A stretch of 64,000 bases of DNA from Halogranum rubrum (GTDB taxonomy: Archaea; Halobacteriota; Halobacteria; Halobacteriales; Haloferacaceae), in contig NZ_FOTC01000001.1 of assembly GCF_900114455.1 (NCBI RefSeq), positions 893,058 through 957,057 of the forward strand. The letters run 5' to 3'. This document shows, in pieces, positions 2,494-57,763 of this stretch. The notes under the pieces were generated by a model that saw only the letters and a list, made by a program, of their open reading frames with translations, had not been told where the DNA came from and did not search any database. Numbering within the stretch: the stretch's first letter is position 1; the number at the start of each line of letters is the position of its first letter. Both the position numbers and the translations under genes were made by a program.

Positions 2494-2515
2494 ACCCCTC
2501 GCTACTAGCCCGCCG

Positions 2516-2580
2516 AGTAAGGTGGTTTCGACGGTGGCAACGACGTCCTGTGTCGACGCCTCGGAGGGACGCTTTTCTCC
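2516..2580. promoter_or_regulatory. Divergent leaderless promoter pair
   Basis: The 108-base gap between two divergent genes holds TTACTC, read leftward, about 26 bases before the GHMP gene start, and CTTTTCTC, read rightward, about 28 bases before the ADP-ribosylglycohydrolase ATG. Both positions match haloarchaeal TATA boxes of leaderless genes. Confidence 0.5.
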
Positions 2581-2601
2581 CCGGGCTGTGTCTTCGGCGA
2601 C

Positions 2602-3522: not shown

Positions 3523-3545
3523 TTCGGGACGGGTTCGAGACCGAT

Positions 3546-3863
3546 TCAGGACGGAAGCGGACAGAGACTCGCCGTGAAGACGACTACCTCGTCGGTGTCG
3601 TTGCGTGCGCCGTGGACGACGCCGCGTTCGTGGAGGACCACGCCGGGTGCCTCTATCTCTTCTTCCTCCTCGTCTTGAATCACGGTCACCGTCCCCTGCA
3701 GCACGTGAAAGACGTTCGTACTGTCGTCGTGTTCGTGCGGCGAGAGTTCGGCACCGGGACCGAGCGCGAACGTCTTCACGAGCACGTCGTCGGTGACGAC
3801 CAGTTCTGCGGTCTCGACGTCGCCCGGGTCGGGCGAGAGGTCTGTCAAGCGATCGAGTGTCAC
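3546..3863 (-). CDS. Small cupin-domain protein
   Basis: About 105 residues form a single cupin barrel. The metal-binding motif 1 is recognisable as GAELSPHEHDDSTNVFHVLQG, and a second motif contains H and E residues around LHERGVVHGARN. A run of five glutamates lies between the two motifs. Single-domain cupins bind a metal or small ligand; no substrate can be assigned. A GTG start at 3863 is preferred because a TTAA box lies about 28 bases upstream. A longer reading (to 4037) is possible but would overlap the divergent gene on the other strand. Confidence 0.75.
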   Translation of the reverse strand: MTLDRLTDLSPDPGDVETAELVVTDDVLVKTFALGPGAELSPHEHDDSTNVFHVLQGTVTVIQDEEEEEIEAPGVVLHERGVVHGARNDTDEVVVFTASLCPLPS

Positions 3864-3975
3864 GGGACAGTCGTCGCTCGCGGGGCGGTTAAGCGTACGG
3901 TCGATCGAGCGTACGGTCACCGTCGGTGTGACCGGTGCGGCATATACAGGCATCGTGCGTATCCGTGATGCTCGT

Positions 3976-4254
3976 GTGAACCGTTCTATCGTCTCTCTAC
4001 CGGCGAACCCACCCGACGGCTGGCAGTCACTCTCCACCGAACGTGGTTCGAGATACAGCGCCGCCCAACGAGTACGATTCGTCAGCCCGAATGCCGGGTT
4101 GGCAGTCGCAGTGACGCTCGACGACGACGGCCCGGAATACCGCGTCGACAGACTCTGTGACGGCGATTGGACGCCGGTCGTTCGGAAGGCACCTCGGGAC
4201 GAGGCGCTCCGCTACGCACACGGGTTCATGCGAACGACGAGAACGACGAACTGA
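3976..4254 (+). CDS. Conserved-looking small haloarchaeal protein
   Basis: This is a 92-residue protein with alternating beta-type strands (VRFVSPNAGLAVAVTLDD, then GPEYRVDRLCDGDWTPVVRK) and acidic composition, consistent with a real soluble halophilic protein. I do not recognise the family. A GTG start at 3976 is suggested because CATATAC lies about 30 bases upstream; a GTG at 3955 is an in-frame alternative. It is divergent from the cupin gene and convergent with the DUF-type gene downstream. Confidence 0.55.
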   Translation: MNRSIVSLPANPPDGWQSLSTERGSRYSAAQRVRFVSPNAGLAVAVTLDDDGPEYRVDRLCDGDWTPVVRKAPRDEALRYAHGFMRTTRTTN

Positions 4255-4288
4255 GTCGGAGCGATTCGGAGAGAAAAGCGAGCGTCGA

Positions 4289-4618
4289 CTACGCGACGAG
4301 TTCTTCGGCGACGACGTCCGGCCCGAGCAGGTTCGGGTCGACGGCCAAGTCGGCCTGTCCCTTCGCGAACTCCGGGAGGGTGTCGTGTGCGTAGACGACG
4401 ACGCGGACGTCGGGGTTCAGTTCCTTCGCGAGCGGAATCGCCGTCGCGTCGTCGAGGTTGGTGAGGACGAACAGGTCGGCGCTCGCCAGCCCTGCTTCGT
4501 CCATGCTGTCTGCGGACGCGGGTGTGTCGATGTACGTCGTCTCGACGCCTTCGGCTTCGAGGGCACTGCCGAGTCCGTCGGCGTCGTCGCCGGCGACGAT
4601 GGCTGTCGTCACCGTCAT
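4289..4618 (-). CDS. Small Rossmann-like protein downstream of GMP synthetase
   Basis: The product is 109 residues, with a Rossmann-like half-domain (TAIVAGDDADGLGSALEAEG, then DLFVLTNLDDATAIPLAKELNP) resembling the NAD-binding or TrkA-N style of nucleotide binding, though cut short. A family of this size follows GMP synthetase in other haloarchaea (I believe DUF7126, from memory). Its ATG overlaps the stop of the upstream guaAb gene by one base (TGATG), so the two are probably translationally coupled. The role is unknown; the context suggests a link to nucleotide metabolism. Confidence 0.75.
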   Translation of the reverse strand: MTVTTAIVAGDDADGLGSALEAEGVETTYIDTPASADSMDEAGLASADLFVLTNLDDATAIPLAKELNPDVRVVVYAHDTLPEFAKGQADLAVDPNLLGPDVVAEELVA

Positions 4619-5535
4619 CACTCGTACTCGATGGTCGCCGGGGGTTTGTGCGTCACGTCGTAGACGACGCGAGCGACGTTCTCGTTCTGTCCGGTGATAC
4701 GGGACTGGATACGTTGGAGCGTCTCCCACGGGAGTTCCTGTGCGCGGGCGGTCATCCCGTCACGCGACTCGACGGAGCGAACTGAGACGATCCAACCGTG
4801 GACGCGGTTGTCGCCCTTCACGCCGGTCGCCTTGCCGACGACGGCGGCGAACGCCTGCCACGGTTCGTGTTCCTCCGTCTCTTCTTCGACGACGTGACAC
4901 GCGTCGCGGGCCACCTCGACCTTCTCCGGCGTGACTTCGCCGATGACGCGCACGGCGAGACCGGGGCCGGGGAACGGCATCCGCTCGGCGACGACCTCTT
5001 CGAGGTCCAGCGCACGAGCGACCTCGCGAACTTCGTCTTTGTAGAGGTCGCGGACGGGTTCGACGATGCCCTCGAAGTCGACGACGTCGGGGAGTCCACC
5101 GACGTTGTGGTGGGATTTGATGTTCCCCTCCGACTCGATGCGGTCGGGGTAGATGGTCCCCTGTACGAGGTACTCGGCGTCGGTGTCTTTCGCCTCACGC
5201 TCGAACTCGCGGATGAACTGCTCGCCGATGACCTTCCGCTTCTCCTCGGGGTCGGTGACGCCGGAGAGGGCGTCGAAGAATCGGTCTTGAGCCTCCACGA
5301 CTCGGAGGCTCTCCATGAACGCGAACGTCTCTCTGATTCCCTCGGTCTCGCCTTTCCGCATCAGTCCCGTGTCCACGTAGACCGGGGTGAGTTGGTCGCC
5401 GATGGCCTCGTAGGCCAGTGCGGCAGCGACGGAGGAGTCCACCCCGCCCGAGAGGGCGATGATGGCGTGTTCGTCGCCGACCTGTTCTCGAATCTCTGCT
5501 GTCGCCTCGTCGATGAAGCTGTCTACGTCTACCAT
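4618..5535 (-). CDS. guaAb: GMP synthase, ATP-pyrophosphatase subunit B
   Basis: The 305-residue protein is the synthetase half of GMP synthase, which in archaea is split from the glutaminase. It adenylates XMP and aminates it to GMP with ammonia from a separate GATase subunit. The PP-loop [13 protein letters not shown] (residues 29-41) and the [13 protein letters not shown] motif near residue 187 are intact. The C-terminal dimerisation region ending in KPPATIEYE is also present. The gene starts immediately after the pyrG stop codon and overlaps the next small gene, giving a pyrG-guaAb-small protein operon that couples CTP and GMP synthesis. Confidence 0.97.
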
Positions 5536-41938: not shown

Positions 41939-43825
41939 CTACTGTTCGTTCGAGAACTGCGCGTCGTAGGCGTTCTGGACGGCGAGGTACTGCTCGCGCG
42001 TCAACTCCGAGGCGAGTTCACTCTCGTCGAGGTCGAGTTTGTAGAGGCGGAACGCCAGTTCCGTCCGGGTCTTGATGTGGACGAGGTCCTCTCGCGCCAC
42101 GTCGTCGGTGTACGGCTGGCGGTTGTAGATTGCCAGCACGTGCCCCGCCGTCTCGGCGCTCACTTCGTCGAAGGTGTAGTCCCAGTACTTCTCTCCGGTG
42201 ATGTCGTCGAGCGTGTAGGCCGGGTTGGTCGGCAGTGGGCCGAACTGGGCGTCGTAGCTGTTCTGTACTTCGAGGAGTTGCTCACGGGTCAGTTCGTCCG
42301 CCAGTTCCGACTCGTCGTAGTCCGTGCCGTACAGGCGGTTCGCAATCTCTTCGCGCGTCTCGATGTCGCCGGGCGTGACACCCGCAGGGAGGGGTTGACG
42401 GTTGGCGATAGCCTGCACCTGTCCAGCCGTCTCGGTGTCGAGTTCGGCGAAGTTCTGTCCGTACTTCATCTGGGCGATGTCGTCGACCGTGTACTCGGTC
42501 GAGTCGTCGTTGCTGGACGTTCGGCGGCCGTCTCGCTCGACGGTGAGCGACGACCCGGTCGCGTTGGTCACGGTGTAGGACTGTCCCTGTTCGTTTTCGA
42601 GCGACTCGACGGCGAGCGTCAGGTCGGTCTCTCCGTCGTCGTCGCCTTCGACGGTGACGGTGGCGAGGACGACGCTACCATTCTGGTCGGTGTCGACGCC
42701 CGTTGCGACGAATCTCACCGACGACTCGTCGTCGGCGATTTCGACGGTGGACGTGGAGTTCTCGGTCGTGCCCGAAAGCTCGACGCCCGTGACGACGGCG
42801 ACGTCGGAGTCGGTCACCGTGACGGTGACGTTGTACGCGCCGACGCCACCGCTGGCGTTGGTGACGACGACGTCGAACGTGGTCTCGTCACCTTCGTCGA
42901 TTTCGTCGGTCGCGGGGTTCATCGTCACCGACGTGGCGAGCGTCTCACGCTCGTCGTCGTCGTCGGTGTCTCGGACGTGGACTTCGACCGTGTCGGTGTC
43001 CGTCTCGTCGTCGTCGCTGACGGTCACGTCGAAGACGAGCGTCGTCCTCTCGCCGACGTTCGGCGCGACGAACGACGCCGTGCTGTTGTTCGTGCTGTCG
43101 AGTGTGACGTTCGGGCCCGCAGTCTGGTTCCACGAGTATCGGAGGTCACCGTCTGCCCCGCTGGAGGCGGAGGCGTCGAGCGTGACGTTCGCGCCCTCGT
43201 CGACCGTCAGGTCGTCGCCGGCGGCGGCCGTCAGCGGCTGGTCGACCGGTTCGGCCTCGACGACGCGAATCGACGTTCCGAGCACGTCGGTCACGGTGTA
43301 GTTCTGTCCGGCTTCGGTGTCGAGCGTCTCGACGTCGAGCGTCAGGTCGGTCGTGCCGACGCCGTCACCGCGGACGGTCACGGTCGCGACGACGACGTTC
43401 CCGCTGTCGTCGGTGTCGGCACCTGCCGCGCTGACAGTCGCCGTGGACCCACCGTTGGACGTCGACATGCTGGCCTGCTTCTGCGAGGGTTCGCCAGCGA
43501 GCGAGACGTCGTCGATGGTCGCGACGGCCGAGTCGTTGGCGGTGACGGCGAAGGCGTACGCGCCCACACCACCCGTCGCGTTCTCGACGACGACGTCGTA
43601 CGTCGTCGTGTCGCCCGCGTGGACGGCGTCGTCTGCGGCGACGAGGCTGACGACGGTGCGTGGCTGTTCTTCCTCGGCGGCGACGGCGCCGAGTGAGTCG
43701 TCGCTGCTGTCGAGTGCTCCGAGCGGGAAGCCCCCGACGGCGAACGCGCCGACGACGAGTGCAATCAGCGCGAGCACGCCGATGCGCTTCGTTGTGAGGA
43801 CGCTCCCGATGGTTTGTGAATTCAT
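41939..43825 (-). CDS. Secreted two-cohesin protein with tandem helical modules
   Basis: The 628-residue protein has a Sec-type signal (~1-50; RIGVLALIALVVGAFAVGG), a cohesin-like module (~57-190), a PKD/Ig-like module (~198-285; DEGANVTLDASASSGADGDL) and a second cohesin-like module (~297-430). A short polar linker leads to two copies of a 92-residue helical module (445-536 and 537-628). The module shows YTxDDI..KY at the start, ETAGxVxAIxNRQP in the middle and ELTREQxLxVQNxYDAQF at the end. Cohesins bind dockerins, and dockerin proteins are encoded 5-16 kb upstream. Many NxS/T sites suggest glycosylation. No C-terminal anchor motif is present. Confidence 0.85.
   Translation of the reverse strand: MNSQTIGSVLTTKRIGVLALIALVVGAFAVGGFPLGALDSSDDSLGAVAAEEEQPRTVVSLVAADDAVHAGDTTTYDVVVENATGGVGAYAFAVTANDSAVATIDDVSLAGEPSQKQASMSTSNGGSTATVSAAGADTDDSGNVVVATVTVRGDGVGTTDLTLDVETLDTEAGQNYTVTDVLGTSIRVVEAEPVDQPLTAAAGDDLTVDEGANVTLDASASSGADGDLRYSWNQTAGPNVTLDSTNNSTASFVAPNVGERTTLVFDVTVSDDDETDTDTVEVHVRDTDDDDERETLATSVTMNPATDEIDEGDETTFDVVVTNASGGVGAYNVTVTVTDSDVAVVTGVELSGTTENSTSTVEIADDESSVRFVATGVDTDQNGSVVLATVTVEGDDDGETDLTLAVESLENEQGQSYTVTNATGSSLTVERDGRRTSSNDDSTEYTVDDIAQMKYGQNFAELDTETAGQVQAIANRQPLPAGVTPGDIETREEIANRLYGTDYDESELADELTREQLLEVQNSYDAQFGPLPTNPAYTLDDITGEKYWDYTFDEVSAETAGHVLAIYNRQPYTDDVAREDLVHIKTRTELAFRLYKLDLDESELASELTREQYLAVQNAYDAQFSNEQ
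41942..42493 (-). repeat. Tandem 92-codon helical module pair
   Basis: Codons 445-536 (42493-42218) and 537-628 (42217-41942) are two consecutive units of exactly 276 bases, homologous to each other and to the pair at 44176-44718. Confidence 0.8.
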
Positions 43826-44172: not shown

Positions 44173-47082
44173 CTAGTGCTCGAACTGTTCGTCGTAGGCG
44201 TTCTGGACGGCGAGGTACTGCTCTCGCGTCAGTTCCGAGGAGAGTTCGCACTCTTCGAGACTGAGTTTGTACAGACGGTACGCCAGTTCTTCGCGCGTCT
44301 TGACGTGGACGAGTTCGTCTTTCGTCACGTCGTCGGCGAACGGTTGGCGGTTGTATATCGCTACAACCTGTCCCGCGGTTTCGGTGCTCACTTCGTCGAA
44401 GGCGTACCCGTACTTCTCGTGCGTGATGTCGTCGAGCGTGTACGTCGGCTCCTCCGGGAGCGGGCCGAACTGCGCGTCGTAGGTGTTCTGCACTTCGATG
44501 AGCTGTTCGCGCGTCAGGTCCTTCGTCAGGTCGGACTCGTCGAGGCTCATACCGTACAGTCGCTCGGCAATCTCCTCGCGGGTCTCGACGTCTTCGGGCG
44601 TGACGCCGGCCGGGAACGGCTGGCGGTTGTAGATCGCCTGCACCTGTCCGGCCGTCTCGGTGCTCAGTTCGTCGAAGGCACGGTCGTACTTCGCGTGTGC
44701 GATCTCGTCGAGCGTGTACGTCGATGATTCGCCGTCGTCGGCGTCGCTGTCGTCTCCGTCGGCGTCGCCGTCATCGGCATCACCGTCGTCAGCGTCGCCA
44801 TTGTCGGCGTCACTGTCACCGTCGTCAGCGTTGCCGTCGTCAGCGTCGCCATCGTCAGCGTCGCCGTCATCGGCATCACCATCGTCAGCGTCGCCGTCGT
44901 CAGCGTCACCATCGTCGGCGTCACCATCGTCAGCGTCGCCGTCATCGGCATCACCGTCGTCAGTGTCGCCATCGTCGGCATCACCGTCGTCAGCATCACC
45001 GTCGTCGGCATCACCGTCGTCAGCGTCACCATCGTCAGCGTCACCATCGTCAGCGTCACCATCGTCGGCGTCGCCATCATCGGCATCGCCATCGTCGGTG
45101 TCACCATCGTCGGCGTCACCGCCGTCGTCTCCGTCGCTCACTGCCTCGACGGTGAGGGTAGCGGTCTGCGAGTCGTCGTCGGTGTAGACGCCGTGGGTGT
45201 ACGACCCGGGCGCGAGAGCGCTCGTGTCGACGTCCTCGAAGGAGACCATCTGGCTCGCGCCACCCGCGAGGGTCGCGTCTTGGCTCGCGACGACGGTACT
45301 ACCGACACGGAACTCGACCGTCTGGGTCGCTTCCTCGTCGCCAGTGTTCTCGACGGTCGCACTGACGTCGATGAGGTCACCTTGGGTGACCGTCACGTCA
45401 GTGGGGTTGAGGCCAGAGACCTCGAAGTTCGCCGGTTCCGGCTCTGGTTCCTCGTCGACTGCCTCGACGGTGAGGGTCGCAGTCGCGGACCCGTCTTCGC
45501 TGTAGATACCGTGCGTGTACGAACCGGGCGCGAGGGCGCTCGTGTCGACGTCCTCGAACCCGACCTGCGTACTCTGACCGCTTCCGAGGGTCACCTCTTT
45601 ACTGTCGATGACCGTGCCGTCCACGCGGAACTCGATGCTCTGGGTGTCCGACCTGTCGCCGGTGTTCTCGACAGTCGCGCCGACGTCGACGAGGTCACCC
45701 TGCGTGACCGTCACGTCGGACGGCTGGAGGTTCGAGACCTCGAAGTTCGCCGGGCCGGCGCTGCTATCGTCCGTGACAGTCAGCGTAGCGCCGGTCGCCT
45801 CGGTCACCGTGTAGCTCGCACCGGCTTCGGTTCCGACCGCCTCGACGTCGAGGCTCAGGTCGGTCTCACCGTCGCGTTCACCTTCGACGGTGATGGTTGC
45901 GATGGTGACCGCGCCAGTGTCGTCGGTGTCGGCAAGCGCCGCGACGACGTCCACGGAGGAGCCGTCGTCGGCGATGGTGACGTCAGACGTCTGGCTGGAG
46001 GGCGACCCCTGCAACTGGACGTCCGTGATGGTCGCGACGTTCGGGTCGTCGACCGTCACCGTGAAGTCGTAGGCGCCAACGCCGCCGTTGGCGTTCTGGA
46101 CGACCACGTCGAACGCGGTCTCGTCGTTCTCTTCGATCTCTTCGTTCGCCGGGTTGAGCGTCACCGACGTCGACAGATCGGGCTCTTCCGGTTCTTCGTC
46201 GTCGTCGGTGTCGACGTCTTGGACGAGGACCTCGACGGAGTCGGTGTCCGTCTCCTCGCCGTCGCCGACCGTGACCTCGAAGGTGAACGTCGTGTCTTCG
46301 GCGACGTCCGGAGCGGTGAACGACGCCGTACTGTCGTCGGCACCGTCGAGTCCGACGGCAGCCCCGCTCGTCTGCGTCCACGAGTAGCTCAGACTGTCTT
46401 CGTCGGGGTCACTGGAGCCAGAGGCGTCGAGCGTGACGTCGTCACCCTCGTCGACCGTCTGGTCGGCACCGGCGTCGGCCACCGGTGGCTGGTTGGTCGG
46501 TTCCGGTTCGTCGCCGGCGACCGTGAGCGAGGCACCGCTCTCTCCCGTGATGGAGTAGCTCTGTCCCTGGCTCGTCCCGAGTGCCTCGACGTCGAGGCTC
46601 AGGTCTGTCGTTCCGGCCGCGTCACCTTGGACCGTGATGGTCGAGATGACGACTTCGCCGTCCTCGTCGGAGTCAGCGAGCGCCGCGACGACGTCCACGG
46701 AGGAGCCGTCGGCTGCGATGTCTACGGTCGACGTCGACGCTGGCGGTGAACCGCCGAGTGCGACGTCGGTTATCGAGGCCACACTCGGGTCGTTCACCGT
46801 CACGGTGAAGTCGTACGCGGCGGCACCGCCCTGTGCGGTTTCGACGACGACGTCGTAGGTCGTCGTCTCGCCGGGTTCGACTTCGTCGCTCGCTGGTGAG
46901 AGGCTAACTGCGGTACTGGGCTGTGCTTGTTGCGCAGCGACAGCACCGAAGGAGCCTCCACCCCCGCCGAGCGCTCCGAGCGGAACCGCCCCTACCGCGA
47001 GCGCGCCGACGACGATTGCCGTCAACGCGAGCGCGACGAGGCTCTTCGTTGTGAGTACGTTGCTTGCTGTATTTGTGCTCAT
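44173..47082 (-). CDS. Giant secreted cohesin-CARDB protein with DADDG repeats
   Basis: The 969-residue protein has a signal (~1-50), a cohesin-like module (~57-185), a PKD-like module (~195-285), a second cohesin-like module (~300-430) and two CARDB modules (~436-650). An acidic spacer of about 20 DADDG pentapeptides (~655-785) then leads to two copies of the helical module (789-880, 881-969). It is a paralogue of the 628-residue protein, with CARDBs and the acidic spacer added. The spacer could bind calcium or keep the tail extended. No PGF-type anchor is seen; the helical modules may serve for attachment. Confidence 0.85.
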   Translation of the reverse strand: MSTNTASNVLTTKSLVALALTAIVVGALAVGAVPLGALGGGGGSFGAVAAQQAQPSTAVSLSPASDEVEPGETTTYDVVVETAQGGAAAYDFTVTVNDPSVASITDVALGGSPPASTSTVDIAADGSSVDVVAALADSDEDGEVVISTITVQGDAAGTTDLSLDVEALGTSQGQSYSITGESGASLTVAGDEPEPTNQPPVADAGADQTVDEGDDVTLDASGSSDPDEDSLSYSWTQTSGAAVGLDGADDSTASFTAPDVAEDTTFTFEVTVGDGEETDTDSVEVLVQDVDTDDDEEPEEPDLSTSVTLNPANEEIEENDETAFDVVVQNANGGVGAYDFTVTVDDPNVATITDVQLQGSPSSQTSDVTIADDGSSVDVVAALADTDDTGAVTIATITVEGERDGETDLSLDVEAVGTEAGASYTVTEATGATLTVTDDSSAGPANFEVSNLQPSDVTVTQGDLVDVGATVENTGDRSDTQSIEFRVDGTVIDSKEVTLGSGQSTQVGFEDVDTSALAPGSYTHGIYSEDGSATATLTVEAVDEEPEPEPANFEVSGLNPTDVTVTQGDLIDVSATVENTGDEEATQTVEFRVGSTVVASQDATLAGGASQMVSFEDVDTSALAPGSYTHGVYTDDDSQTATLTVEAVSDGDDGGDADDGDTDDGDADDGDADDGDADDGDADDGDADDGDADDGDADDGDADDGDTDDGDADDGDADDGDADDGDADDGDADDGDADDGDADDGDADDGNADDGDSDADNGDADDGDADDGDADGDDSDADDGESSTYTLDEIAHAKYDRAFDELSTETAGQVQAIYNRQPFPAGVTPEDVETREEIAERLYGMSLDESDLTKDLTREQLIEVQNTYDAQFGPLPEEPTYTLDDITHEKYGYAFDEVSTETAGQVVAIYNRQPFADDVTKDELVHVKTREELAYRLYKLSLEECELSSELTREQYLAVQNAYDEQFEH
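44176..44718 (-). repeat. Tandem helical module pair (paralogous to 41942-42493)
   Basis: Codons 789-880 (44718-44443) and 881-969 (44442-44176) are two copies of one module. Shared features are the YTLDxI..KY start, ETAGQVxAIYNRQPF, and LTREQxxxVQNxYDxQF. Confidence 0.8.
44731..45126. repeat. 15-bp tandem repeats encoding DADDG
   Basis: About 20 nearly identical 15-base units (variants of CGTCGTCAGCGTCGC on the plus strand) encode the acidic spacer. Such an array can change length by slippage. A few units are altered to T, N or S. Confidence 0.85.
45146..45435. repeat. 290-bp CARDB unit, copy 1
   Basis: Runs from TCGACGGTGAGGGT to GAAGTTCGCCGG. It is one of four equal-length CARDB-coding units at this locus. 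Confidence 0.75.
45464..45753. repeat. 290-bp CARDB unit, copy 2
   Basis: Same boundaries and length as copy 1, the most diverged of the four (contains GACTGTCGATGACCGTGCCG-type differences). Confidence 0.7.
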
Positions 47083-47174: not shown

Positions 47175-48947
47175 CTACCCAGTGATGAGCATATTGTAGA
47201 GAGCCTGCACGTCGACGACGTCGATCTTCCCGTCACCGTTGTAGTCGAACTTCTCGACGTTCTCCGTCACGACTGGGTCGTTCAGGTTGGCGAAGGTGGC
47301 CTGGATGTCGACGATGTTGAACGTGCCGTCACCGTTGATGTCCTCGTAGATGCCGTCCCCGTCGAGGTCGTTCGGCGGGTTCTGGAAGTTGCCGATGGGT
47401 CCGAGGCTGACGACGGTTACCGTCGCTCCGGAGGTTCCGGACACCGTGTAGCTCTGACCGGTCTCGTCACCGAGCGCGGCGACGCCGAGCGAGAGGTTGG
47501 CCGAGCCATCGTCTCCGTCTGCGGCCGAGCCTTCGGCCTGCGTGGTCACTTCGATGGTCGCGATGGTGACTGCGCCGGAGTCCGCGGTGTTCATGAGCGC
47601 GGCGTTGATGGTCACCGAACTGCCGTCCTCACTGATCTGGACGTCAGACGTCTGAGCGCTCGGGTTGCCGAGTAGCTCGACGTTCGTAATCGTGACCGAC
47701 GGGTCGTCGGAACTGACGGTCGCAGTGTACGCACCGACGCCGCCGTCGACGTTCTCGACGACCACGTCGAACGTCTCGGTGTTGCCAACGACGACTTCGG
47801 ACGAAGTCGGCGAGAGGCTCACGTCGCTCGATTTGCCCGTCACCACTTCTTCCTCGACGGTGAGGGTGGCGGTCTGAGAGTCGTCGTCGGTGTAGACGCC
47901 GTGGGTGTACGAACCGGGTGCGAGACTGCTCGTGTCGACGTCCTCGAAGGAGACCGTCGTGCTCGCGCCGCCCGCGAGGGTCACGTCTTGACTCGCGACG
48001 ACGTTCCCGTCGACTTGGAACTCGACACTCTGGGTCGCTTCCTCGTCGCCGGTGTTCTCGACGGTCGCGCCGACGTCGATGAGGTCACCTTGGGTAACCG
48101 TCACGTCCGTGGGGTTGAGACCAGAGACCTCGAAGTTCGCCGGAGTCGTCGTGACTGGCTCTTCGACGGTGAGCGTCGCGGTCTGTTCGTCGTCGTCGGT
48201 GTAGACACCGTGGGTGTACGAACCGGCGTCGAGACTGCTCGTGTCGATGTCCTCGAAGGAGACCGTCGTGCTCGCGCCGCCCGCGAGGGTCACGTCTTGG
48301 CTGGCGACGACGCTCCCGTCGACTTGGAAGGAGACGCTCTGAGTCGCTTCTTCGTCGCCGGTGTTTTCGATAGTCGCGCTGACGTCGACGAGGTCACCCT
48401 GGGTGACCGTCACGTCCGTCGGGGTGAGACCCGACACCTCGAAGTTCGGCGGTTCGACGACTTCCTCTTCGACGGTGATGGTCGTCGAAGCGGAGTTGAC
48501 GAGACGTTCACTGGTCGATGGAACGATGACCGACCCTTCGGAGGTGACAACGTACTCGCCCGGTGCAGCGCTCTCGGGAACCTGCACGGTGTACGTGTGC
48601 GTGTAGGTCCCGGTCACACCGTCGCTGTCAGACAGAGAGAGTCCGCCGAGGAAGGCGTTCTGCTGGGCGAAGTAGTTCCAGCCGTCCCCCGCGTTCGCGG
48701 ACGTTACTGTCCACCCATCGGGCAGGAGTGGCTCCATCCCCGGTGCGTTGGTCTCCGTCTGTACGAACGTCGCCGTAATCTGGACTTCGTCTCCGGGGTT
48801 CGCTGTGATGCTATCAGTACCGTGCGTGACGACGACGTCGGGTGCCGCAGCCACGATGCCTACCGGTCCGAGGACCGAGAGGACGAGTGCGAGCGCGACG
48901 AGCGCGGCCGTTGTTTTTCTAAGTCGCTTCTGAATTGCGTGTTTCAT
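47175..48947 (-). CDS. Secreted CARDB-cohesin-dockerin protein
   Basis: The 590-residue protein has a signal (~1-34), a beta domain of unknown type (~35-160), two CARDB modules (~168-268, ~272-370), a cohesin-like module (~378-500) and a C-terminal type-I dockerin (~525-590). The dockerin has two intact calcium loops, DINGDGTFNIVD and DYNGDGKIDVVD, each followed by a helix. Carrying both a cohesin and a dockerin makes it a natural adaptor: its dockerin can bind cohesins of neighbours while its own cohesin can receive another dockerin. The start is the ATG before KHAIQKRLRKT. Confidence 0.9.
   Translation of the reverse strand: MKHAIQKRLRKTTAALVALALVLSVLGPVGIVAAAPDVVVTHGTDSITANPGDEVQITATFVQTETNAPGMEPLLPDGWTVTSANAGDGWNYFAQQNAFLGGLSLSDSDGVTGTYTHTYTVQVPESAAPGEYVVTSEGSVIVPSTSERLVNSASTTITVEEEVVEPPNFEVSGLTPTDVTVTQGDLVDVSATIENTGDEEATQSVSFQVDGSVVASQDVTLAGGASTTVSFEDIDTSSLDAGSYTHGVYTDDDEQTATLTVEEPVTTTPANFEVSGLNPTDVTVTQGDLIDVGATVENTGDEEATQSVEFQVDGNVVASQDVTLAGGASTTVSFEDVDTSSLAPGSYTHGVYTDDDSQTATLTVEEEVVTGKSSDVSLSPTSSEVVVGNTETFDVVVENVDGGVGAYTATVSSDDPSVTITNVELLGNPSAQTSDVQISEDGSSVTINAALMNTADSGAVTIATIEVTTQAEGSAADGDDGSANLSLGVAALGDETGQSYTVSGTSGATVTVVSLGPIGNFQNPPNDLDGDGIYEDINGDGTFNIVDIQATFANLNDPVVTENVEKFDYNGDGKIDVVDVQALYNMLITG
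47854..48143. repeat. 290-bp CARDB unit, copy 3
   Basis: Encodes the second CARDB of the dockerin protein. It is closely similar at DNA level to the unit at 45146 and to its own tandem neighbour. Confidence 0.75.
48163..48452. repeat. 290-bp CARDB unit, copy 4
   Basis: Encodes the first CARDB of the dockerin protein, separated by 19 bases from copy 3. Confidence 0.75.
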
Positions 48948-49269: not shown

Positions 49270-52200
49270 TTACGCGCTGGCCTCCACGATTTCGATGGCG
49301 TTGATCTGGGGGTTCTCCACGTCGTGGATGAACTCGATGTCGATGTCGCCGTCGGACCCGGCGGTCACCGTAATCGACTCCATACCCGCGTTCTGGTCAC
49401 CGTACGCGGCGATTGGGCTGAACCCGGAGAGTTCGGTCGTTCCCTCGATGTTCACGTCGAAGACGCGGTCACCGACTGCGCTGGTGCCGCTGTACCCGTC
49501 GTAGAAGTACAGACGGACCTCGTATGTCTGTCCGGCCTCGATCTGGTCAGCGAACTCCCACGCCATCTCGTCACCGCTGGGCTGGTCCCACCGCTCGCTG
49601 TTCCAGATTGTCGTCGGCGTCGACGACGGGACGGAGTCGTCGATGCTGTTCAGACCGCTTCCGTACGACCCGGTTTGGGTGCCGCCGGCGACGAGGTACT
49701 GGCTCGGTGAGCCACCCGTGTCGGCGCTCCAGTCCGGGCCGTCGTCGGTCGCCGTGACCGCAGACCCACCCGCGTTCACACGGTAGAGGACCTGCGGTTC
49801 GCTGGTCGCTTCACCGAGTTTCAACACGACGACGTTGGAGGTCGCGCCGGTGTCACCGCTGCCGTCCTCGACGGTGGCGATGAAGTGGTTGAACCCGCCC
49901 TCGGCGCCGGTACCCGTCGAGTCGAGGAGCGTCACCGGAACGGTCGCCTCGCCGTTCGAGTCGAGGGTAGCCGTCACGTAGTCGACGTTCTCCGCGGTGT
50001 TTGCTTCGAACTCTTCGAGTTCGTATCCGTTCGCCTGATTGGCGAGTTCGAGTTGGCCCTCGACGTGGAGCAACGTCACCGTCGCACCAGCCGGACCGGA
50101 GACCGTGATGGTCTGGTCGGTGTCAGTGACGACTGCGCCACTGTGTTGGCTGTGGAGGATGCCGCTGTCGAGCGAGACGCCGTCGACGCCGAGCGTCGGT
50201 GCGTCCGCGAGGTCGGCTTTCGCCGTCGCCTGCGAGCCACCGTTGCTTCCGTCAGCGAACAGGTTCGTCGTCTGCGTCGAGCCGTCGGCGTATTCGACCG
50301 TCACCGTCGCGCCCGAGAGTTCGAGACCCGAGACGGAGCCGGCTGCGCCGGACCCCTGTGCGTCTTTGATGCTCGTCGGGTCGATGTCCGTCGAGAAGGC
50401 GAACGACTCGCCCGCATCGAAGTCAGTGAAGTCGATGGTCAGTTCGTCGTAGCCGTCTGCGCCGTCGTTACCGTTGTGCGGTGCCGCGAACGACCCGGAG
50501 GGGCCGACCGCGCTCGTACCGCTGTCAGCGCTGAACCCTTTTCCAGTCGAGTCACCTGCGGTTCCGTCGGGGTCGAAGACCACGTCGGGGAACGCTGCAG
50601 TGCTCAGGTCGTAGGTGACCGACGAAATCTGCTTGTCGCCGGTGTTCGTGATCTCTATCGAGCTTCCGCTGAAGGTACTCGCGTCGATGCCGCCGTTCGC
50701 GTTGACGGCGAAGTCGGCGGAGCCGATATCGTCGCCGCCACTGCCACCACCGTTACCGTCGGCTTCGGTGACTTTGATGGCGGAAATCTTCGCGTTGTCG
50801 ACGACGTTCGAGAAGACGATGTTCAGTTCGCCGTCGTCGACGGTGGTCGTGAACGTCTCGGACGTCGCCGCCTGCGGACCGCCCGCAGTCGCGTAGATGT
50901 CGTAGTCGTTCAGGACCTGCTGTCCCTCGATGGCGACGTCGAACAGACGGTCGCCTTCGCCACCGTCGTTCGCGACGCCTTGGTAGAGTTCGGCGAACAG
51001 CAGTTCGACGTCGTAGTCGCCGTTGTCGACCGGGACGTCGTACGAGAAGGACCCGTACCGCTCGGTGTAGTAGAGCGTGTCGTCGTCCGTGTTCGTAATC
51101 TCCGGGGTGGATGGCGTTCCGGCACTGCCGGTCGTGAACGTGGTGCCGCCGTCGAAGTTCGTGTCTGCCGCGTAGACCGTGCCGTCGGTCGCCGTGTACT
51201 CCGGACCGCCGGCGTTCACCGCGAAGACGGTCTCAGCGCCGCTTCCGCTACCGGGTTCGTACTTCAGGACGACCACGTTCGAGGCGTCTCCCATATCGCC
51301 GGAGGCCTCGCCGTGGGCGGCCACGAAGTAGTTGAAGCCGGCTTCGTCGTCGTCGTCGGCACCGTCGGTCAGCGTGACCGGAACCGTCGCCTCGCCGTTC
51401 GAGTCGAGGGTGACCGTGTAGTACTCGACGTTGACCGCGTTGTTCGCTTCGAGCGCTTCGACGTCGTAGCCGCCGTTCGGGACGTTGCTCAACGAGAGTT
51501 CGCCCTCGACGCGCACGAGCGTGACCGTCTCACCGGGTTCGCCGGAGACCGTGATGGTCTGGCTGGCCTCGGAGACCGTCGCGCCGCTGTGGTAGCCGTC
51601 GAGAACGCCGCTGTCGAGCGAGACGCCCGCTGCTCCGATGGTCGGTGCCGGGGCTTCGTCGCCGTCGAGGACGGCCGTCGACCCGCCGACGCTACCGTCG
51701 CCCATCAGGTTCGCCGTCTGGACCGTCCCGTCGGAGTAGGTGACCGTCACCGTCGAGCGGGCGAGTTCCAGACCGGAGACCGGACCGGCCTCCTGCGAAG
51801 CAATCGTCGACCCCTTGATGCTGGTCGGGTCGTTGTCCGCCCAGAACGTCGCCGTCTCGCCGTTCTGGAAGTCGCTGAACTCGACGGTCATGACGTCGTA
51901 GCCGTCTGCGCCGTCGTTACCGTTGTGCGGCTGTGAGAACGCTTCGTCCGAGCCACCGCCGCTGGTCGTGATGCCCGTGCCACCGTCGCTGACGACGTTG
52001 AGGCCCTCACCGGTCGGGTCGCCCGCCGTGCCGTCGGGGTCGAAGACCATATCGGGCATGGTCGCCGTGCTCAGGTCGAACGAGACCGACACGATGTCCG
52101 TCTCGCCGGTGTTGGTCACTTGGTAGCTTCCGATTCCGTAGGTCGTCTGGTCGATGTTTCCGCTGTCGGGGGTCACCTCGACCAGCGACGAACTGCTGAG

Positions 52201-53208
52201 ACTGGACGCTTCCACCGTGACGGTGGCCTCGTCGGACGCCTCGGCGTTCGCGTACGCCGTGTGCGTCATGTCTGCGACGGCGACGGAGACAGTGTGTTCG
52301 CCCGCAGCGACGTTCTCGAAGGTGTACGAGCCGTCGAGGGGTTGCCCGCCGACGTAGTCGTTCTCGTCGAGTTGGACGTGGACGTGGTCCGTCGACTCCG
52401 CGGGAGTCGCCTGCCACGTGACGGTCACGTTGTTGCCGTCGACAGCGGTGTCGGTAATCTGGATTGACGCGTCGTCCGAGCCGGTGTCGACCGTCGCGCC
52501 GATGGCCCACGTGTTGATGAGCTGTTGAATCTCTTGGAACGCGATGGTCTGACCGCCGGTGTTGGGCACTTCTGCACCGGTCGCCCACCAGTTGATCGCC
52601 TGTTGAATCTCTTGGAACTCGATGAGCGAGTCGTCGCCGTCACTGGCGCTGGCAACCGCCTGTTCGACGGTCAGGTCACCGGTCGACGAGTCGGTGACCG
52701 TCACCGTCGCGTCGAGCGTGCCGGCGATGTCGTAGTCTTCTGCATCGTCCGTTCCGATGTCCACCGACTCTCCATCTATCGAGAGCGTGGCGTCGCCAGC
52801 GGACTGACCTTCGATGGTCACCGTCGCGAGCACGACTTCACCGGTGCCGGAGGTGTCGGAGAACCCGACTGCAGCGGACGCGGACGACCCGTCGGACGCC
52901 ACCGAGGTCGAACTGACACTAGTCGACGGGTTACCGGCGAGGTCGATCTCTGTAATCGTCGCGACGTTCGTGTCGTCGACGCTGACGGTGAACTCGTAGG
53001 ACCCGACGCCCTCCGATGCCGCCGTTGCGACGACGTCGACTGTTGTGGTGCTCCCGGGGCTAACCGACTGACTGGCCGGGGTAATCGCTATCTGTGTGCT
53101 CGCCGCGAGTGCGACACCGGACGCTCCCGCCGAGACGACGAGGAGGACCGCCATCACGACGACGGCGAGCTTGTTGAGTCTCTGTCTTGATGCTGAGTTT
53201 CGTTTCAT
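49270..53208 (-). CDS. Giant secreted cohesin and double-malectin protein
   Basis: The 1312-residue protein has a signal (~1-34), a cohesin-like module (~36-150), a duplicated EIQQxINxWA helical segment (~175-235) that looks like a dockerin without calcium loops, and an FN3-like domain (~240-330). It then has two copies of an unrecognised ~270-residue beta-rich domain, each followed by a malectin domain (VNAGGPEYTATDG, then VNAGGSAVTATDD with YGSFSYDVP or EMAWEFADQI). Malectins bind di- or oligosaccharides. The start is the ATG before KRNSASRQRLNK, since upstream extension overlaps the neighbour's dockerin. It is the likely sugar-binding scaffold of the cluster. Confidence 0.88.
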   Translation of the reverse strand: MKRNSASRQRLNKLAVVVMAVLLVVSAGASGVALAASTQIAITPASQSVSPGSTTTVDVVATAASEGVGSYEFTVSVDDTNVATITEIDLAGNPSTSVSSTSVASDGSSASAAVGFSDTSGTGEVVLATVTIEGQSAGDATLSIDGESVDIGTDDAEDYDIAGTLDATVTVTDSSTGDLTVEQAVASASDGDDSLIEFQEIQQAINWWATGAEVPNTGGQTIAFQEIQQLINTWAIGATVDTGSDDASIQITDTAVDGNNVTVTWQATPAESTDHVHVQLDENDYVGGQPLDGSYTFENVAAGEHTVSVAVADMTHTAYANAEASDEATVTVEASSLSSSSLVEVTPDSGNIDQTTYGIGSYQVTNTGETDIVSVSFDLSTATMPDMVFDPDGTAGDPTGEGLNVVSDGGTGITTSGGGSDEAFSQPHNGNDGADGYDVMTVEFSDFQNGETATFWADNDPTSIKGSTIASQEAGPVSGLELARSTVTVTYSDGTVQTANLMGDGSVGGSTAVLDGDEAPAPTIGAAGVSLDSGVLDGYHSGATVSEASQTITVSGEPGETVTLVRVEGELSLSNVPNGGYDVEALEANNAVNVEYYTVTLDSNGEATVPVTLTDGADDDDEAGFNYFVAAHGEASGDMGDASNVVVLKYEPGSGSGAETVFAVNAGGPEYTATDGTVYAADTNFDGGTTFTTGSAGTPSTPEITNTDDDTLYYTERYGSFSYDVPVDNGDYDVELLFAELYQGVANDGGEGDRLFDVAIEGQQVLNDYDIYATAGGPQAATSETFTTTVDDGELNIVFSNVVDNAKISAIKVTEADGNGGGSGGDDIGSADFAVNANGGIDASTFSGSSIEITNTGDKQISSVTYDLSTAAFPDVVFDPDGTAGDSTGKGFSADSGTSAVGPSGSFAAPHNGNDGADGYDELTIDFTDFDAGESFAFSTDIDPTSIKDAQGSGAAGSVSGLELSGATVTVEYADGSTQTTNLFADGSNGGSQATAKADLADAPTLGVDGVSLDSGILHSQHSGAVVTDTDQTITVSGPAGATVTLLHVEGQLELANQANGYELEEFEANTAENVDYVTATLDSNGEATVPVTLLDSTGTGAEGGFNHFIATVEDGSGDTGATSNVVVLKLGEATSEPQVLYRVNAGGSAVTATDDGPDWSADTGGSPSQYLVAGGTQTGSYGSGLNSIDDSVPSSTPTTIWNSERWDQPSGDEMAWEFADQIEAGQTYEVRLYFYDGYSGTSAVGDRVFDVNIEGTTELSGFSPIAAYGDQNAGMESITVTAGSDGDIDIEFIHDVENPQINAIEIVEASA
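49288..49570. repeat. 283-bp malectin-end repeat, copy 1
   Basis: Nearly identical to 53639-53921, with equal length and only scattered substitutions; encodes the last ~94 residues of the malectin. It may indicate gene conversion between neighbouring genes. Confidence 0.85.
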
Positions 53209-53383: not shown

Positions 53384-56300
53384 CTACTCGCTCTGCGTCT
53401 CGATGAACAACGCCTGCACGTCGACGATGTTGACCTCGCCGTTGCCGTTGAAGTCGAACGCCTCTGGGTAGTTCTGGACGCCGTCGCTCTCGTAGTTCTG
53501 GAAGAGCGCCTGCACGTCGACGATGTTGAACTCACCGTTGCCGTTGACGTCCTCGTAGCGGCCGTCGCCGTCCGGGTCGGTCGGTGCATTCTCGAAGCTC
53601 CCGACCGGTCCGGGCGCGGAGTCGTCACTCACGGCGACGATTTCGATGGCGTTGACCTGCGGGTTCTCCACGTCGTGGATGAACTCGATGTCGATGTCGC
53701 CGTCGGATCCGGCGGTCACCGTGACCGACTCCATCCCGGCGGTCTGGTCGCCGTACGCCGCGATGGGGTCGAAGCTCTGCAGTTCGGTCGTTCCCTCGAT
53801 GTTCACGTCGAAGACGCGGTCACCGACTGCGCTGGTGCCGTCGAAGCCGTCGTAGAAGTACAGACGGACCTCGTAGGTCTGTCCGGCCTCGATCTGGTCG
53901 GCGAACTCCCACGCCATCTCGGGGGATGCCGATGGGTCGTAGCGTTCCTTCTGGAACACCTCGTTCGGCGTGCTCGAGGGCACCGACGCGTCGACGGCGT
54001 CGACGGTGTAGGTGCCGCCGGGGATAGCTCCGCCGGCGACGAGGTACTGGCTCGGTGAGCCATCCGTGTCGGCGCTCCACACGGGACCGTCGTCGGTCGC
54101 CGCGACTTCAGGTCCACCCACGTTGACGCGGTGGATGACGTCGCCGTCGACCGGCGGAGCGTCCGTGTCCTGAATCGTCACGTCGACCGTGTCGGTGTCG
54201 CTGAACTCGCCGTCGGAGACGCTGACCTGGAAGGTGAGCGTCGTGTCGCCGTCGACGTCCGGGGCGGTGAACGTCACCTGTTCGCTGTCGCTCACGTCGA
54301 GCAGTCCGTCGGGCGTGCCCGCCGTCTGCGTCCACGTGTAGCCGAGTTGGTCGCCGTTCGGGTCGCTGGAGCCGGACGCATCGAGCGTCACCGTCTGCCC
54401 TTCGTCGACTGTGACGTCGCCACCGGCGTCGGCCACCGGTGGCTCGTTCGTCGGCGCGTCGACGTACTCGACGTTGAGGTCGGTCCAGGTCGCGTCGAAC
54501 GTCGAACTGGCCTGGTAGGACGTCGCGATGACGCCGACTGCGAGACCGCTACCGTCGGTACTGTCGAGCCAACTGGCCGGGATGGCCGTCGTGCCGACCG
54601 TCGTCTTCGCCCCACCGTCGACACCGTACTCGGCGGTGAGTGCGACTTCGTCGATACCGTTGTCGGGGTCGGGGTCGGTCGTCGGGTCGACCGTCAAGTA
54701 GAGGTCGGTGTTCGTCGACGGACCCGTCACAGTGCTGTCGTCGGGCTGTGCGACGCCGGTGAAGGTCCCGTCGACCTCTTTGGCCAACTGGACACCACCG
54801 GTTCCGCCGTTAGCGGAGACGACGACTTTCGCGTAGTTGTCCTGGTCACCGGTTCCGACGTAGATACCTATCGCTTGGTAGTTCTGCGGACTGTCCGGGA
54901 ACCCGTTGACCGTCGTCGAGACGGTGAACGGTTCGCCTGGCGCGTCGATGCCGCGCTGGAAGGCGAACTGCTGGCTGTTCTGGTCGTTGACCGCGTCACC
55001 GCCCGGGACGCTCTCGACCGACAGCACCTGTGCCGCCCCACCGACCGTCATCTGGTCGGGGTCGTAGAGGTCGAGGTAGTCGTCCTGTCCGTTCGTCATC
55101 AGGCCCGTCCACCCCTGTCCGTTGTCGCCGAACAGCGTCGTCTCGGAGAAGTCCATCTCCACCGGGAGCGACGTGTCGACGCCGTTGTTCGCGTCGAGTG
55201 CGAACGGGTCCTGCGTGTCGTCGATACCGTCGTTGTCGTCGTCCGGGTCGTTCAGGTTGGACGTGCCGTCGTCGTCGAAGTCGGCCGGCGTCGACGCGGC
55301 CGAACATGGGTCGGTCCCGTTGTCGAGTTCGTCGGCGTTGTCGTAGCCGTCGTTGTCTTCGTCGAGGCTCGCGTCGTCGGCACCGGTACACTGCGTCCCG
55401 GTGTTTCCGTCGTAGTCGTTCGGCTCGAACACCGTGATGCCGCCACGAGCGGTCCAGACGGTCCCCGGGAAGGGACCCTCGTCACTCTGTGCGGCGATGC
55501 CGAGCGCGCTGATGTCGCTGAAGAAGTTTCCTTCCTGGTTCGTCACTCCGTCGCCTGCGGCGTTGAGTTCGACGCGCTCGACGGAGCCGCCGTTCTCGAC
55601 GACGAGCAGGTCGCCCTGCATCGCGCCGCCGAAGTTCGAAGCGGTGTACTCGTCGATACCGCCGGTCCAACCGAAGGTGTTCCCGAGGGAGTTGTCTTCG
55701 GTCGGGTCCTGGTAGTCACACTCGACCGGGTTGACGAGCGAGGCCGGAACGGGGCTGTTGCTCTCGGTGATGTCGAGAATCACGTTCCCGTCCTTGTCGT
55801 AGATGTCTGCGCCGGTCGGGTTCCCGCGAATCGGGGCCGCGTGGCCGCCGTAGGAACCCTGCGTGGCGAGGTGTAGCTGGTCGCCGGTGCTGTAACTGCC
55901 GTCCTCGTTAGGGGCGTTCGTACAGATGCCGGCGGGACCTTCGTCGACCGGTATCCCACCCCAGCCACCGTTCGGGCCGTTGTCGATGACGTAGAGCTGG
56001 TCGTCCTCCGAGAGGACGAGGTCGTAGGGGTTGCGGTAACCCGACGAGTAGACCTGAACCGGGCCGTTCTCGAGCCACTTCGCTTGGTTCAGTCCGTTGT
56101 TGCCACCGAACGGCAGGTCGTCGCCGTCCGTGGCGTCGTCGTTCTGGATGGTCGGGATGCCGTAGTAGAACGGCAGGTCCGGGTAGTTGCTGTTGTAGTT
56201 CTGGAGATTCTTCGCGCCGAAGCTCTCGACCTGTTGCAGGTCGATGGTCAGGACGGCGGCCGACAGGGCGTACTCGGGCGTGTGACCGAAGTTGTTACTC

Positions 56301-57763
56301 GGCGCTCCCTTGTTCGCGTGGCCACCCGATGCGACGTACAGCGTGTTGCCGTCGTCGCTCAGGTCCAGCCCGTTCGTCGCGTGGTTCTCCTCAGAGCGCG
56401 GAAGCCCGAGGACCAACACTTCGTGCGTGATTTCGCTGTCGGCGAGGACGCCGTCCCCACCCCAGTCGAGGGTGAGCCGCGAAATCGCACCGGAGTTGGT
56501 ATCGACGCTGTCGTCGTCGTCACCGACCTTGATGGTCGGGTCGCTCGACGAGACGTAGAGCACGGGCGTCGAAGCCGTTCCTCCGACCGTGATGCCGGTG
56601 ATCTGACGGTCGTTCTCACCCGAGTTGTAGCTCCCGTCGTCGTTGTGGTTCGGGATGTCTTGGACGAGGCCGATCTCCTTCTCGTAGACGACGGAGTAGG
56701 AGTTCGCGCCGTTGCGCTCGATTTCGAGCGCGTAGACCATCCCGTTCTGCTTGGTGACGTAGAGTCGGTCGTCGGGACCGAACTCCAACGCGGTCAGCGA
56801 CCCGTCACCGAAACCTTGGAGACTGCTCTTACCGAAGCCGATCTGCGCCGTGCTCGCCCCCTCACCCGAGAGTGAGACGGAGAGCGGCGAGTTGCTACCG
56901 GAGTGGCTGACTTCGAGCGTCCCCGACTTCGCCTGTGCGTCGGACGGCGTGAACGAGACGGGGATGCTGGCGGACTCGCCGGGTGCGAGCGTGTTCGTCG
57001 AAGCTGAGCCAGCGGAGAAGTCCCCGTCACCGGAGACGGAGACGTCCGTGATGTCGATACTCGGGTCACCGTCGCCGCCGAGGTTGGTCACCGTGACCGT
57101 GTTCGTCTCGGAGTCACCGACGAGAACGCTCCCGAAGTCGAGACTCGACTGCCCGCCGAGTTCGTTTGCTTGTGGCTCCGAGGAGACGACCTCGATAGCA
57201 GATATCTTGGCGTTGTCGACGACGGTGGTGAACTCGACGTCGAGCGTCCCGTCGGTGGGCGTGACAGTGTAGGACTTCATCGTCCCGACGTCGTGACCGA
57301 CGTCTGCGTGGATGTCGTAGTCGTTCAGAACCTGCTGGCCCTCGACGGAGACGTCGAACTCACGTGCGCCGTTAGATGTGGCGAAAATCTCTGCGAAGTA
57401 CAGTCGCACTTCGTACTGCTGGTTCGCGGTGACGTCGAAGTCCCACTGCGTGTCACCGTAGCGCTCCGTCTCGAACACCGCCGATGGTGTGCTACCGGGA
57501 ACCGTCCCGTCAGTCGAGACGGCGTCCGACGTCGAGTACGTGCTCGTACTTCCGCTGACGGTTACCCCGCTCGTCGATCCGGGCGACGTCCAGTCGGGAC
57601 CGCCGTCGGTCGCGGAGACGGTCGACCCACCCGCGTTCACTCGATAGAAGGTCCCCGTCTGTGCGCTCGCCGTCCCCGCAGCGAACGCGACGGTTCCTGC
57701 GAAGGTGGACGTGACGAGGAGGAGCGTCAACAGGAGGACGAAGGGTCGCTTCGCCCGACTCAT
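53384..57763 (-). CDS. Giant secreted sugar-dehydrogenase, malectin and dockerin protein
   Basis: The 1459-residue protein has a signal (~1-34), a malectin (~35-205), an ASPM/SPD-2/Hydin-like Ig module (~207-305) and a beta-propeller of the PQQ-type glucose/sorbosone dehydrogenase family (~307-775; LTALEFGPDDRLYVTKQNG, ENHATNGLDLSDDGNTLYVASGGH, SSGYRNPYDLVLSEDDQLYV). An Asp-rich TSP3-like calcium stretch (~780-850), a concanavalin-like domain (~855-1085), a PKD (~1090-1175) and a second malectin (~1185-1375) follow. A C-terminal dockerin (~1385-1455) has loops DVNGNGEFNIVD and DFNGNGEVNIVD. The conserved His of the propeller is a candidate catalytic residue. PQQ is not proven. Confidence 0.9.
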   Translation of the reverse strand: MSRAKRPFVLLLTLLLVTSTFAGTVAFAAGTASAQTGTFYRVNAGGSTVSATDGGPDWTSPGSTSGVTVSGSTSTYSTSDAVSTDGTVPGSTPSAVFETERYGDTQWDFDVTANQQYEVRLYFAEIFATSNGAREFDVSVEGQQVLNDYDIHADVGHDVGTMKSYTVTPTDGTLDVEFTTVVDNAKISAIEVVSSEPQANELGGQSSLDFGSVLVGDSETNTVTVTNLGGDGDPSIDITDVSVSGDGDFSAGSASTNTLAPGESASIPVSFTPSDAQAKSGTLEVSHSGSNSPLSVSLSGEGASTAQIGFGKSSLQGFGDGSLTALEFGPDDRLYVTKQNGMVYALEIERNGANSYSVVYEKEIGLVQDIPNHNDDGSYNSGENDRQITGITVGGTASTPVLYVSSSDPTIKVGDDDDSVDTNSGAISRLTLDWGGDGVLADSEITHEVLVLGLPRSEENHATNGLDLSDDGNTLYVASGGHANKGAPSNNFGHTPEYALSAAVLTIDLQQVESFGAKNLQNYNSNYPDLPFYYGIPTIQNDDATDGDDLPFGGNNGLNQAKWLENGPVQVYSSGYRNPYDLVLSEDDQLYVIDNGPNGGWGGIPVDEGPAGICTNAPNEDGSYSTGDQLHLATQGSYGGHAAPIRGNPTGADIYDKDGNVILDITESNSPVPASLVNPVECDYQDPTEDNSLGNTFGWTGGIDEYTASNFGGAMQGDLLVVENGGSVERVELNAAGDGVTNQEGNFFSDISALGIAAQSDEGPFPGTVWTARGGITVFEPNDYDGNTGTQCTGADDASLDEDNDGYDNADELDNGTDPCSAASTPADFDDDGTSNLNDPDDDNDGIDDTQDPFALDANNGVDTSLPVEMDFSETTLFGDNGQGWTGLMTNGQDDYLDLYDPDQMTVGGAAQVLSVESVPGGDAVNDQNSQQFAFQRGIDAPGEPFTVSTTVNGFPDSPQNYQAIGIYVGTGDQDNYAKVVVSANGGTGGVQLAKEVDGTFTGVAQPDDSTVTGPSTNTDLYLTVDPTTDPDPDNGIDEVALTAEYGVDGGAKTTVGTTAIPASWLDSTDGSGLAVGVIATSYQASSTFDATWTDLNVEYVDAPTNEPPVADAGGDVTVDEGQTVTLDASGSSDPNGDQLGYTWTQTAGTPDGLLDVSDSEQVTFTAPDVDGDTTLTFQVSVSDGEFSDTDTVDVTIQDTDAPPVDGDVIHRVNVGGPEVAATDDGPVWSADTDGSPSQYLVAGGAIPGGTYTVDAVDASVPSSTPNEVFQKERYDPSASPEMAWEFADQIEAGQTYEVRLYFYDGFDGTSAVGDRVFDVNIEGTTELQSFDPIAAYGDQTAGMESVTVTAGSDGDIDIEFIHDVENPQVNAIEIVAVSDDSAPGPVGSFENAPTDPDGDGRYEDVNGNGEFNIVDVQALFQNYESDGVQNYPEAFDFNGNGEVNIVDVQALFIETQSE
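53639..53921. repeat. 283-bp malectin-end repeat, copy 2
   Basis: Second copy, at the 3' region of the dehydrogenase gene before its dockerin. Equal length to 49288-49570 with very few differences. Confidence 0.85.

Follow-up and report, generated by a model that had tools for sequence, protein, structure and literature searches.

Complexes held together by cohesins and dockerins are known from the clostridial cellulosome, in which the cargo carries a dockerin, an adaptor bears both a cohesin and a dockerin, each dockerin has two calcium loops, and a cohesin protein is held at the membrane. Archaeal cohesin and dockerin proteins have been described in Archaeoglobus fulgidus (2XDH) and in ANME, scaffoldin-like proteins included (PMC9012536). 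Some ANME proteins combine several cohesins with a dockerin, and ANME dockerins occur on transporter binding proteins and S-layer proteins (PMC9012536). In haloarchaea, dockerins have been treated as substrate-binding modules and cohesins have gone unmentioned (PMC10963439, PMC13260240). Our literature searches for malectin, cohesin or PQQ glucose dehydrogenase in haloarchaea produced no relevant paper, and no report of haloarchaeal cohesins was found, an earlier mention being possible in a 2009 survey of non-cellulosomal cohesins. A second group of described relatives comprises sGDH of Acinetobacter (1C9U, 8RE0), the aldose sugar dehydrogenases (2ISM, 3DAS, 3A9G) and the AA12 pyranose dehydrogenases, all of which have a six-bladed propeller with a catalytic histidine and an Arg-Asn pair. 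The haloarchaeal gene cluster described here has likenesses to both groups.

The window analysed is a stretch of 64,000 nucleotides from Halogranum rubrum, and all of its features given below lie on the minus strand. A gene at 53384..57763 encodes a secreted multidomain protein of 1459 aa with an ATG start; the reading frame, coordinates and strand had been given exactly by an earlier sequence-only reading of the same DNA. Residues 10-34 weakly match a haloarchaeal signal-peptide model, and the protein contains 245 acidic and 37 basic residues, an acid-rich composition typical of haloarchaea.

Along the protein, the order of domains is malectin, ASH, six-bladed propeller, Asp-rich TSP3-like stretch, a domain at residues 871-1105, PKD, malectin and type I dockerin. 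The two malectins, the PKD domain and the dockerin, all previously claimed, were recovered by Pfam. In a scan of the whole protein the malectin family (PF11721, 5.7e-39) matched in two stretches, the first at 57194..57649 (residues 39-190) and the second at 53570..54142 (about residues 1208-1398), for which an in-house malectin HMM was also used. The PKD domain (about residues 1106-1205, 54149..54448) matches PF22352 and PF18911, and an ASH/choice-of-anchor-D Ig-like domain that was missing from the sequence-only domain list lies at residues 205-302 (56858..57151; Pfam PF22544 and PF15780, NCBIfam NF012200). The TSP3-like calcium stretch (residues 797-870, 55154..55375), which was on that list, is weakly supported by a single sub-threshold match to Pfam TSP3_bac (18.8 bits against a cut-off of 25). 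Residues 871-1105 (54449..55153), previously labelled as lectin-like, have neither a Pfam family nor a convincing PDB match, so that label finds no support and is unproven. The dockerin occupies residues 1399-1456 (53396..53569), with IV-type residues at positions 10-11; PF00404 matches residues 1403-1452 (9.4e-7, 29.4 bits, above the cut-off of 22.9), and both of its calcium loops, DVNGNGEFNIVD and DFNGNGEVNIVD, are intact.

The propeller (residues 305-796, 55376..56851) gave no match when the whole protein was scanned with Pfam. As an isolated segment it reached 21.2 bits against Pfam GSDH, below the gathering cut-off of 25, in a match confined to 33 residues around the GYRNP stretch, and a phmmer search of the PDB returned nothing useful. 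A profile of 25 propeller relatives searched against the whole PDB found only two proteins at E<10, both of them GSDH enzymes, namely 2ISM (0.0015) and the Acinetobacter glucose dehydrogenase 8RE0 (0.094). Profile comparison by hhalign matched a family profile of 38 sequences to 32 canonical haloarchaeal GSDH over 337 columns with a probability of 96% and E=1.1e-9; a reversed profile used as control gave 0%, and the probability depends on profile depth, being 36% with 25 sequences and 96% with 38. The AlphaFold (AF2) model of the propeller has a pTM of 0.88 and a mean pLDDT of 78. When this model was compared with the PDB by Foldseek, ranks 1-16 were all PQQ sugar dehydrogenases (sGDH, aldose dehydrogenase and AA12), with E from 3e-12 to 4e-8 and TM-scores by target of 0.53-0.65, and generic WD40 propellers followed after rank 16. 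From hhalign together with AlphaFold and Foldseek, the homology of the propeller to GSDH is secure though distant, and the GSDH-type propeller proposed from the sequence is thus borne out as a remote relative.

Such propellers were found in 30 of 391 haloarchaeal genomes. The same subfamily is present in giant proteins of Hymenobacter, Rufibacter, Persicobacter, Rhizobium and Deinococcus, which have 25-45% identity to it and sugar-binding modules around it; these proteins are annotated by their binding modules only (malectin, CBM35 or NPCBM), and no dockerin or neighbouring cohesins were noted within the stretches read. Public annotation of the subfamily is limited to 'malectin domain-containing' or hypothetical proteins, and no report of it was found in the literature searched.

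Alignment places H461 (56381..56383) at His144, the catalytic base of A. calcoaceticus sGDH, and R577-N578 (56030..56035) at R228-N229, which lie at the PQQ quinone oxygens. The counterpart of Gly247-Pro248, the calcium turn of sGDH, is G596-P597 (55973..55978), which has the same spacing from the arginine (+19/+20) and is mostly conserved in the family. All 38 family sequences, drawn from haloarchaea, Bacteroidota, Deinococcota, Pseudomonadota and Actinomycetota, have the catalytic histidine and the Arg-Asn pair; for two rows that the motif pattern missed, the alignment shows ARSEENH and ARSSEAH. By contrast, the canonical R-x-R near the C-terminus, which binds the PQQ carboxylates and is present in all five solved GSDH chains compared, was found by motif in none of the 38 sequences, a few of which are incomplete at that end. 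Its position is occupied by A753-L754-G755 in the window protein (55499..55507, located by hhalign) and, across the family alignments, by residues of the ALG, PLG or PLD type. A crude regular expression picked up the same motif in 21 of 32 canonical GSDH sequences, a count that is not usable as a rate. His144, Lys377 and Arg408 have been named for sGDH (PMC6881789), and the haloarchaeal alignment offers no basic residue in place of Lys377. Compared with the sGDH, aldose and AA12 dehydrogenases, the window propeller has the same six blades, histidine and Arg-Asn pair, but it shows only ~14% identity, lacks the R-x-R and the lysine for the PQQ carboxylates, contains long inserts and is set in a giant malectin protein. 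It also has family invariants of its own, NHxD at 372-375 and YGGHxxPxR at 638-646, which could re-make the pocket.

It is quite possible that the propeller no longer binds any cofactor and acts as a sugar-binding or adhesion module in a docked matrix complex, which is compatible with the assembly proposed below. The loss of the R-x-R pair and the invariants NHxD and YGGHxxPxR point to an altered pocket, and sugar-binding modules flank the propeller both in haloarchaea and in the bacterial homologues. However, the active-site His, Arg and Asn are invariant across archaea and four bacterial phyla, and a dead module would not obviously need them.

That the propeller functions as a PQQ-dependent aldose dehydrogenase, served by scavenged PQQ and delivered to a scaffold by its dockerin, is likewise compatible with the assembly, although we consider it doubtful. 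The sequence-only reading had proposed PQQ oxidation of aldoses, and inspection of the PQQ and calcium residues upholds this in part: the catalytic histidine, the Arg-Asn pair and the Gly-Pro turn are kept and every one of the closest solved structures is a PQQ sugar dehydrogenase, but part of the cofactor residues is missing, the R-x-R being gone in all 38 sequences and Lys377 having no basic substitute in the haloarchaeal alignment. The fungal AA12 enzyme offers a precedent, since it holds the PQQ carboxylates partly by other residues, with one arginine replaced from elsewhere, yet even this enzyme retains one conserved arginine, Arg621 (PMC6881789). As for cofactor supply, PqqC was above the cut-off in none of the 145 haloarchaeal genomes sampled, H. 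rubrum included, whereas a bacterium with a close propeller homologue (G391), used as positive control, carries PqqC at 360 bits. Canonical GSDH genes nevertheless occur in 88 of 97 haloarchaea, two of them in the H. rubrum genome, so an organism that makes no PQQ might still use it. With canonical GSDH common while PqqC is absent, PQQ may be scavenged, or another cofactor may be used. Because the R-x-R is absent from the 38 family sequences and PqqC from the 145 haloarchaea, PQQ-dependent oxidation is a candidate function only, and we lean slightly towards binding or changed chemistry.

Directly downstream of the propeller gene, four genes on the same strand contain six copies of a domain of ~135 residues, which are cohesins according to their modelled fold. 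Gene 2 (49270..53208, likely start ATG at 53208) encodes a secreted protein with one cohesin (52690..53100), further beta domains and two malectins. Gene 3 (47175..48947) encodes an adaptor with repeated beta domains, a cohesin (47406..47831) and a C-terminal dockerin (47187..47348; Pfam PF00404, 2.2e-7). The product of gene 4 (44173..47082) has two cohesins (46513..46917 and 45769..46173), a PKD domain, repeated beta domains, an acidic repeat and two C-terminal repeats of ~85 aa, and that of gene 5 (41939..43825) has two cohesins (43256..43660 and 42533..42937) and two such C-terminal repeats. The window thus holds two double-cohesin proteins and two dockerin proteins, and the six cohesins that the genome has of this family all lie inside the cluster. 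After the cohesin of gene 2, at 52441-52689, there are two helical repeats (FQEIQQAINWWATG and FQEIQQLINTWAIG) that resemble a dockerin without calcium loops and are unmatched by dockerin models.

None of the six domains, each scanned singly, matches the Pfam Cohesin family PF00963; weak PF00963 matches do exist in the genome, and these were ruled out as the six domains because they belong to other genes outside the window. The evidence for the fold comes from the fourth cohesin (45769..46173), whose AF2 model has a pLDDT of 97.6 and a pTM of 0.91. Foldseek ranks 1-46 of this model against the PDB are all cohesins, with top TM-scores of 0.72-0.77 (by query), and include the archaeal A. fulgidus cohesin at 20% identity. 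It could be argued that these domains are Ig-like repeats of the ordinary surface-protein kind and that the dockerin is a relic, considering that Pfam recognizes no cohesin and that a profile of 56 cohesin-like copies matches PDB cohesins weakly (E about 0.07-0.1), the matches including two cellulosomal scaffoldin cohesins over nearly their full length. The fold comparison is clear-cut, however, and here as well as at related loci the dockerin has kept its two calcium loops, which makes such an explanation improbable.

The arrangement recurs in other haloarchaea. Of 23 haloarchaeal loci spanning up to 20 kb each, 19 have the propeller gene followed on the same strand by a gene for a cohesin with a dockerin and then by a cohesin gene, and the first downstream cohesin gene in this set nearly always bears a dockerin. 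The same propeller-cohesin order was present in six of ten added loci, several of the others being cut by a contig or region end, so that the succession of propeller, cohesin-dockerin adaptor and cohesin anchor is seen in about 25 of 33 haloarchaeal loci in total. All 13 propeller-positive genomes that were also covered by the cohesin search contain cohesins of this family, compared with 86 of the 194 haloarchaeal genomes sampled overall. In many relatives, the last gene encodes a short protein in which a cohesin is joined through an acidic or Thr/Pro-rich linker to a C-terminal membrane helix, the helix having been located in eleven loci checked. It is absent from the last two cohesin proteins of the window (genes 4 and 5). 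The tandem repeats of ~85 residues at their C-termini (YTLDEIAHAKYD...) have no Pfam match, are also found at another haloarchaeal locus (L112) and are possibly the cell-surface anchor of the scaffold proteins. With regard to the propeller protein itself, the window and seven relatives of the first set have a terminal dockerin, and most other relatives end in a malectin; because roughly two in three propeller relatives lack a dockerin themselves, the family does not depend on docking of this protein.

Dockerins of the propeller proteins fall into two recognition types, IVDVQ (the window, L033 and L047) and VGDAQ (L044 and L048-L051), and the cohesins follow the same division. In a tree of 56 cohesins, one clade (98/84 support) consists only of cohesins from the five VG loci; members of this clade occur at 5/5 loci with a VG dockerin and 0/14 others, as raw locus counts that ignore kinship. 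The six added cohesin-bearing loci all fit the matching: L099, L109 and L113, which have a VG-type dockerin repeat, also have VG-type cohesins, and L110, L112 and L115, which lack the repeat, have no such cohesins, although L099 is almost a duplicate of L044 and so gives no independent support, and the L113 dockerin is mixed. At L109, a separate malectin protein (2346-5174) encoded beside the propeller gene bears the VG dockerin and the propeller protein lacks one; it looks as though the dockerin had been passed on to a partner. Subtype matching of this kind is what real binding partners would show. That the dockerin instead binds a carbohydrate substrate and no cohesin, an idea put forward for mannanases and a glycosaminoglycan lyase of haloarchaea (PMC10963439, PMC13260240), is very improbable here, considering that those papers make no mention of cohesins, that six cohesin folds adjoin this dockerin and that dockerin and cohesin subtypes change together.

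The five-gene cluster probably encodes a secreted, calcium-dependent, cellulosome-like surface complex in which the propeller protein is docked by its dockerin. Delivery to a scaffold, which the dockerin had already suggested to the sequence-only reading, is well supported by the six downstream cohesin folds, the conserved synteny and the co-changing subtypes. Domain make-up, cohesin fold, gene order, intact calcium loops and matched subtypes were all computed directly, and assembly of the complex is strongly implied; since the dockerin is matched by six cohesins in the next four genes, the propeller protein is probably part of a calcium-dependent multi-protein complex. From these data we infer dockerin-cohesin binding, a surface location in this organism and a sugar ligand. 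In the proposed scheme, the protein encoded at the head of the cluster would be secreted and would fold with calcium, its two malectins, and probably the propeller as well, would bind sugars, and its C-terminal type I dockerin would plug into cohesins of the next genes' products. The dockerin of the gene 3 adaptor would in turn plug into further cohesins on the products of gene 4 or 5, and the last cohesin protein, in many relatives, would be held in the membrane by its C-terminal helix, giving two tiers. A more specific reading, which we put forward tentatively, is a two-tier cohesin-dockerin machine whose main cargo, in place of a hydrolase, is a family of giant malectin proteins with a GSDH-derived propeller and a re-made pocket and whose subtypes co-evolve at each locus; the pocket may have a different cofactor or acceptor, or none.

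Compared to the clostridial cellulosome, the cluster is alike in the dockerin on the cargo, the adaptor with cohesin and dockerin, the two calcium loops per dockerin and, in relatives, the membrane-held cohesin protein. It differs in that no glycoside hydrolase was matched among the five clustered genes, the place of such enzymes being taken by one large malectin/propeller protein, and in that its cohesins are too diverged for Pfam. Like ANME, it has archaeal cohesins and dockerins, but the haloarchaeal dockerin is on a GSDH-like malectin protein, and conserved synteny and subtype matching distinguish the haloarchaeal system from those of ANME and A. fulgidus. A two-tier cellulosome-like complex has apparently not been described in haloarchaea before.

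Elsewhere in the H. rubrum genome, a calcineurin-like phosphatase with a C-terminal dockerin (L056 5966-8883; G000:C6 738965-741882) is directly followed by a cohesin protein with a Thr/Pro linker and a C-terminal membrane helix. Given this second, unrelated pair, the principle of an enzyme with a dockerin and an anchored cohesin is used twice in the genome. Many haloarchaeal cohesins of the propeller-cluster family are also located in other gene settings, such as proteins of about 890-930 aa, and since such cohesins are present in 86 of the 194 genomes, there may be further cohesin-dockerin systems still to be described.

For haloarchaeal dockerins, the cohesins lacking so far are provided by this locus and its relatives, together with a pairing that can be tested directly. 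The propeller subfamily defined here is common to archaea and several bacterial phyla, has been missed by database annotation and offers a way to see how the active site of a quinoprotein changes. If the proposed assembly is true, it would provide salt-stable dockerin-cohesin pairs of at least two subtypes and represent a cellulosome-like assembly at molar salt, which, judging from the 86 of 194 genomes with such cohesins, may be widespread.
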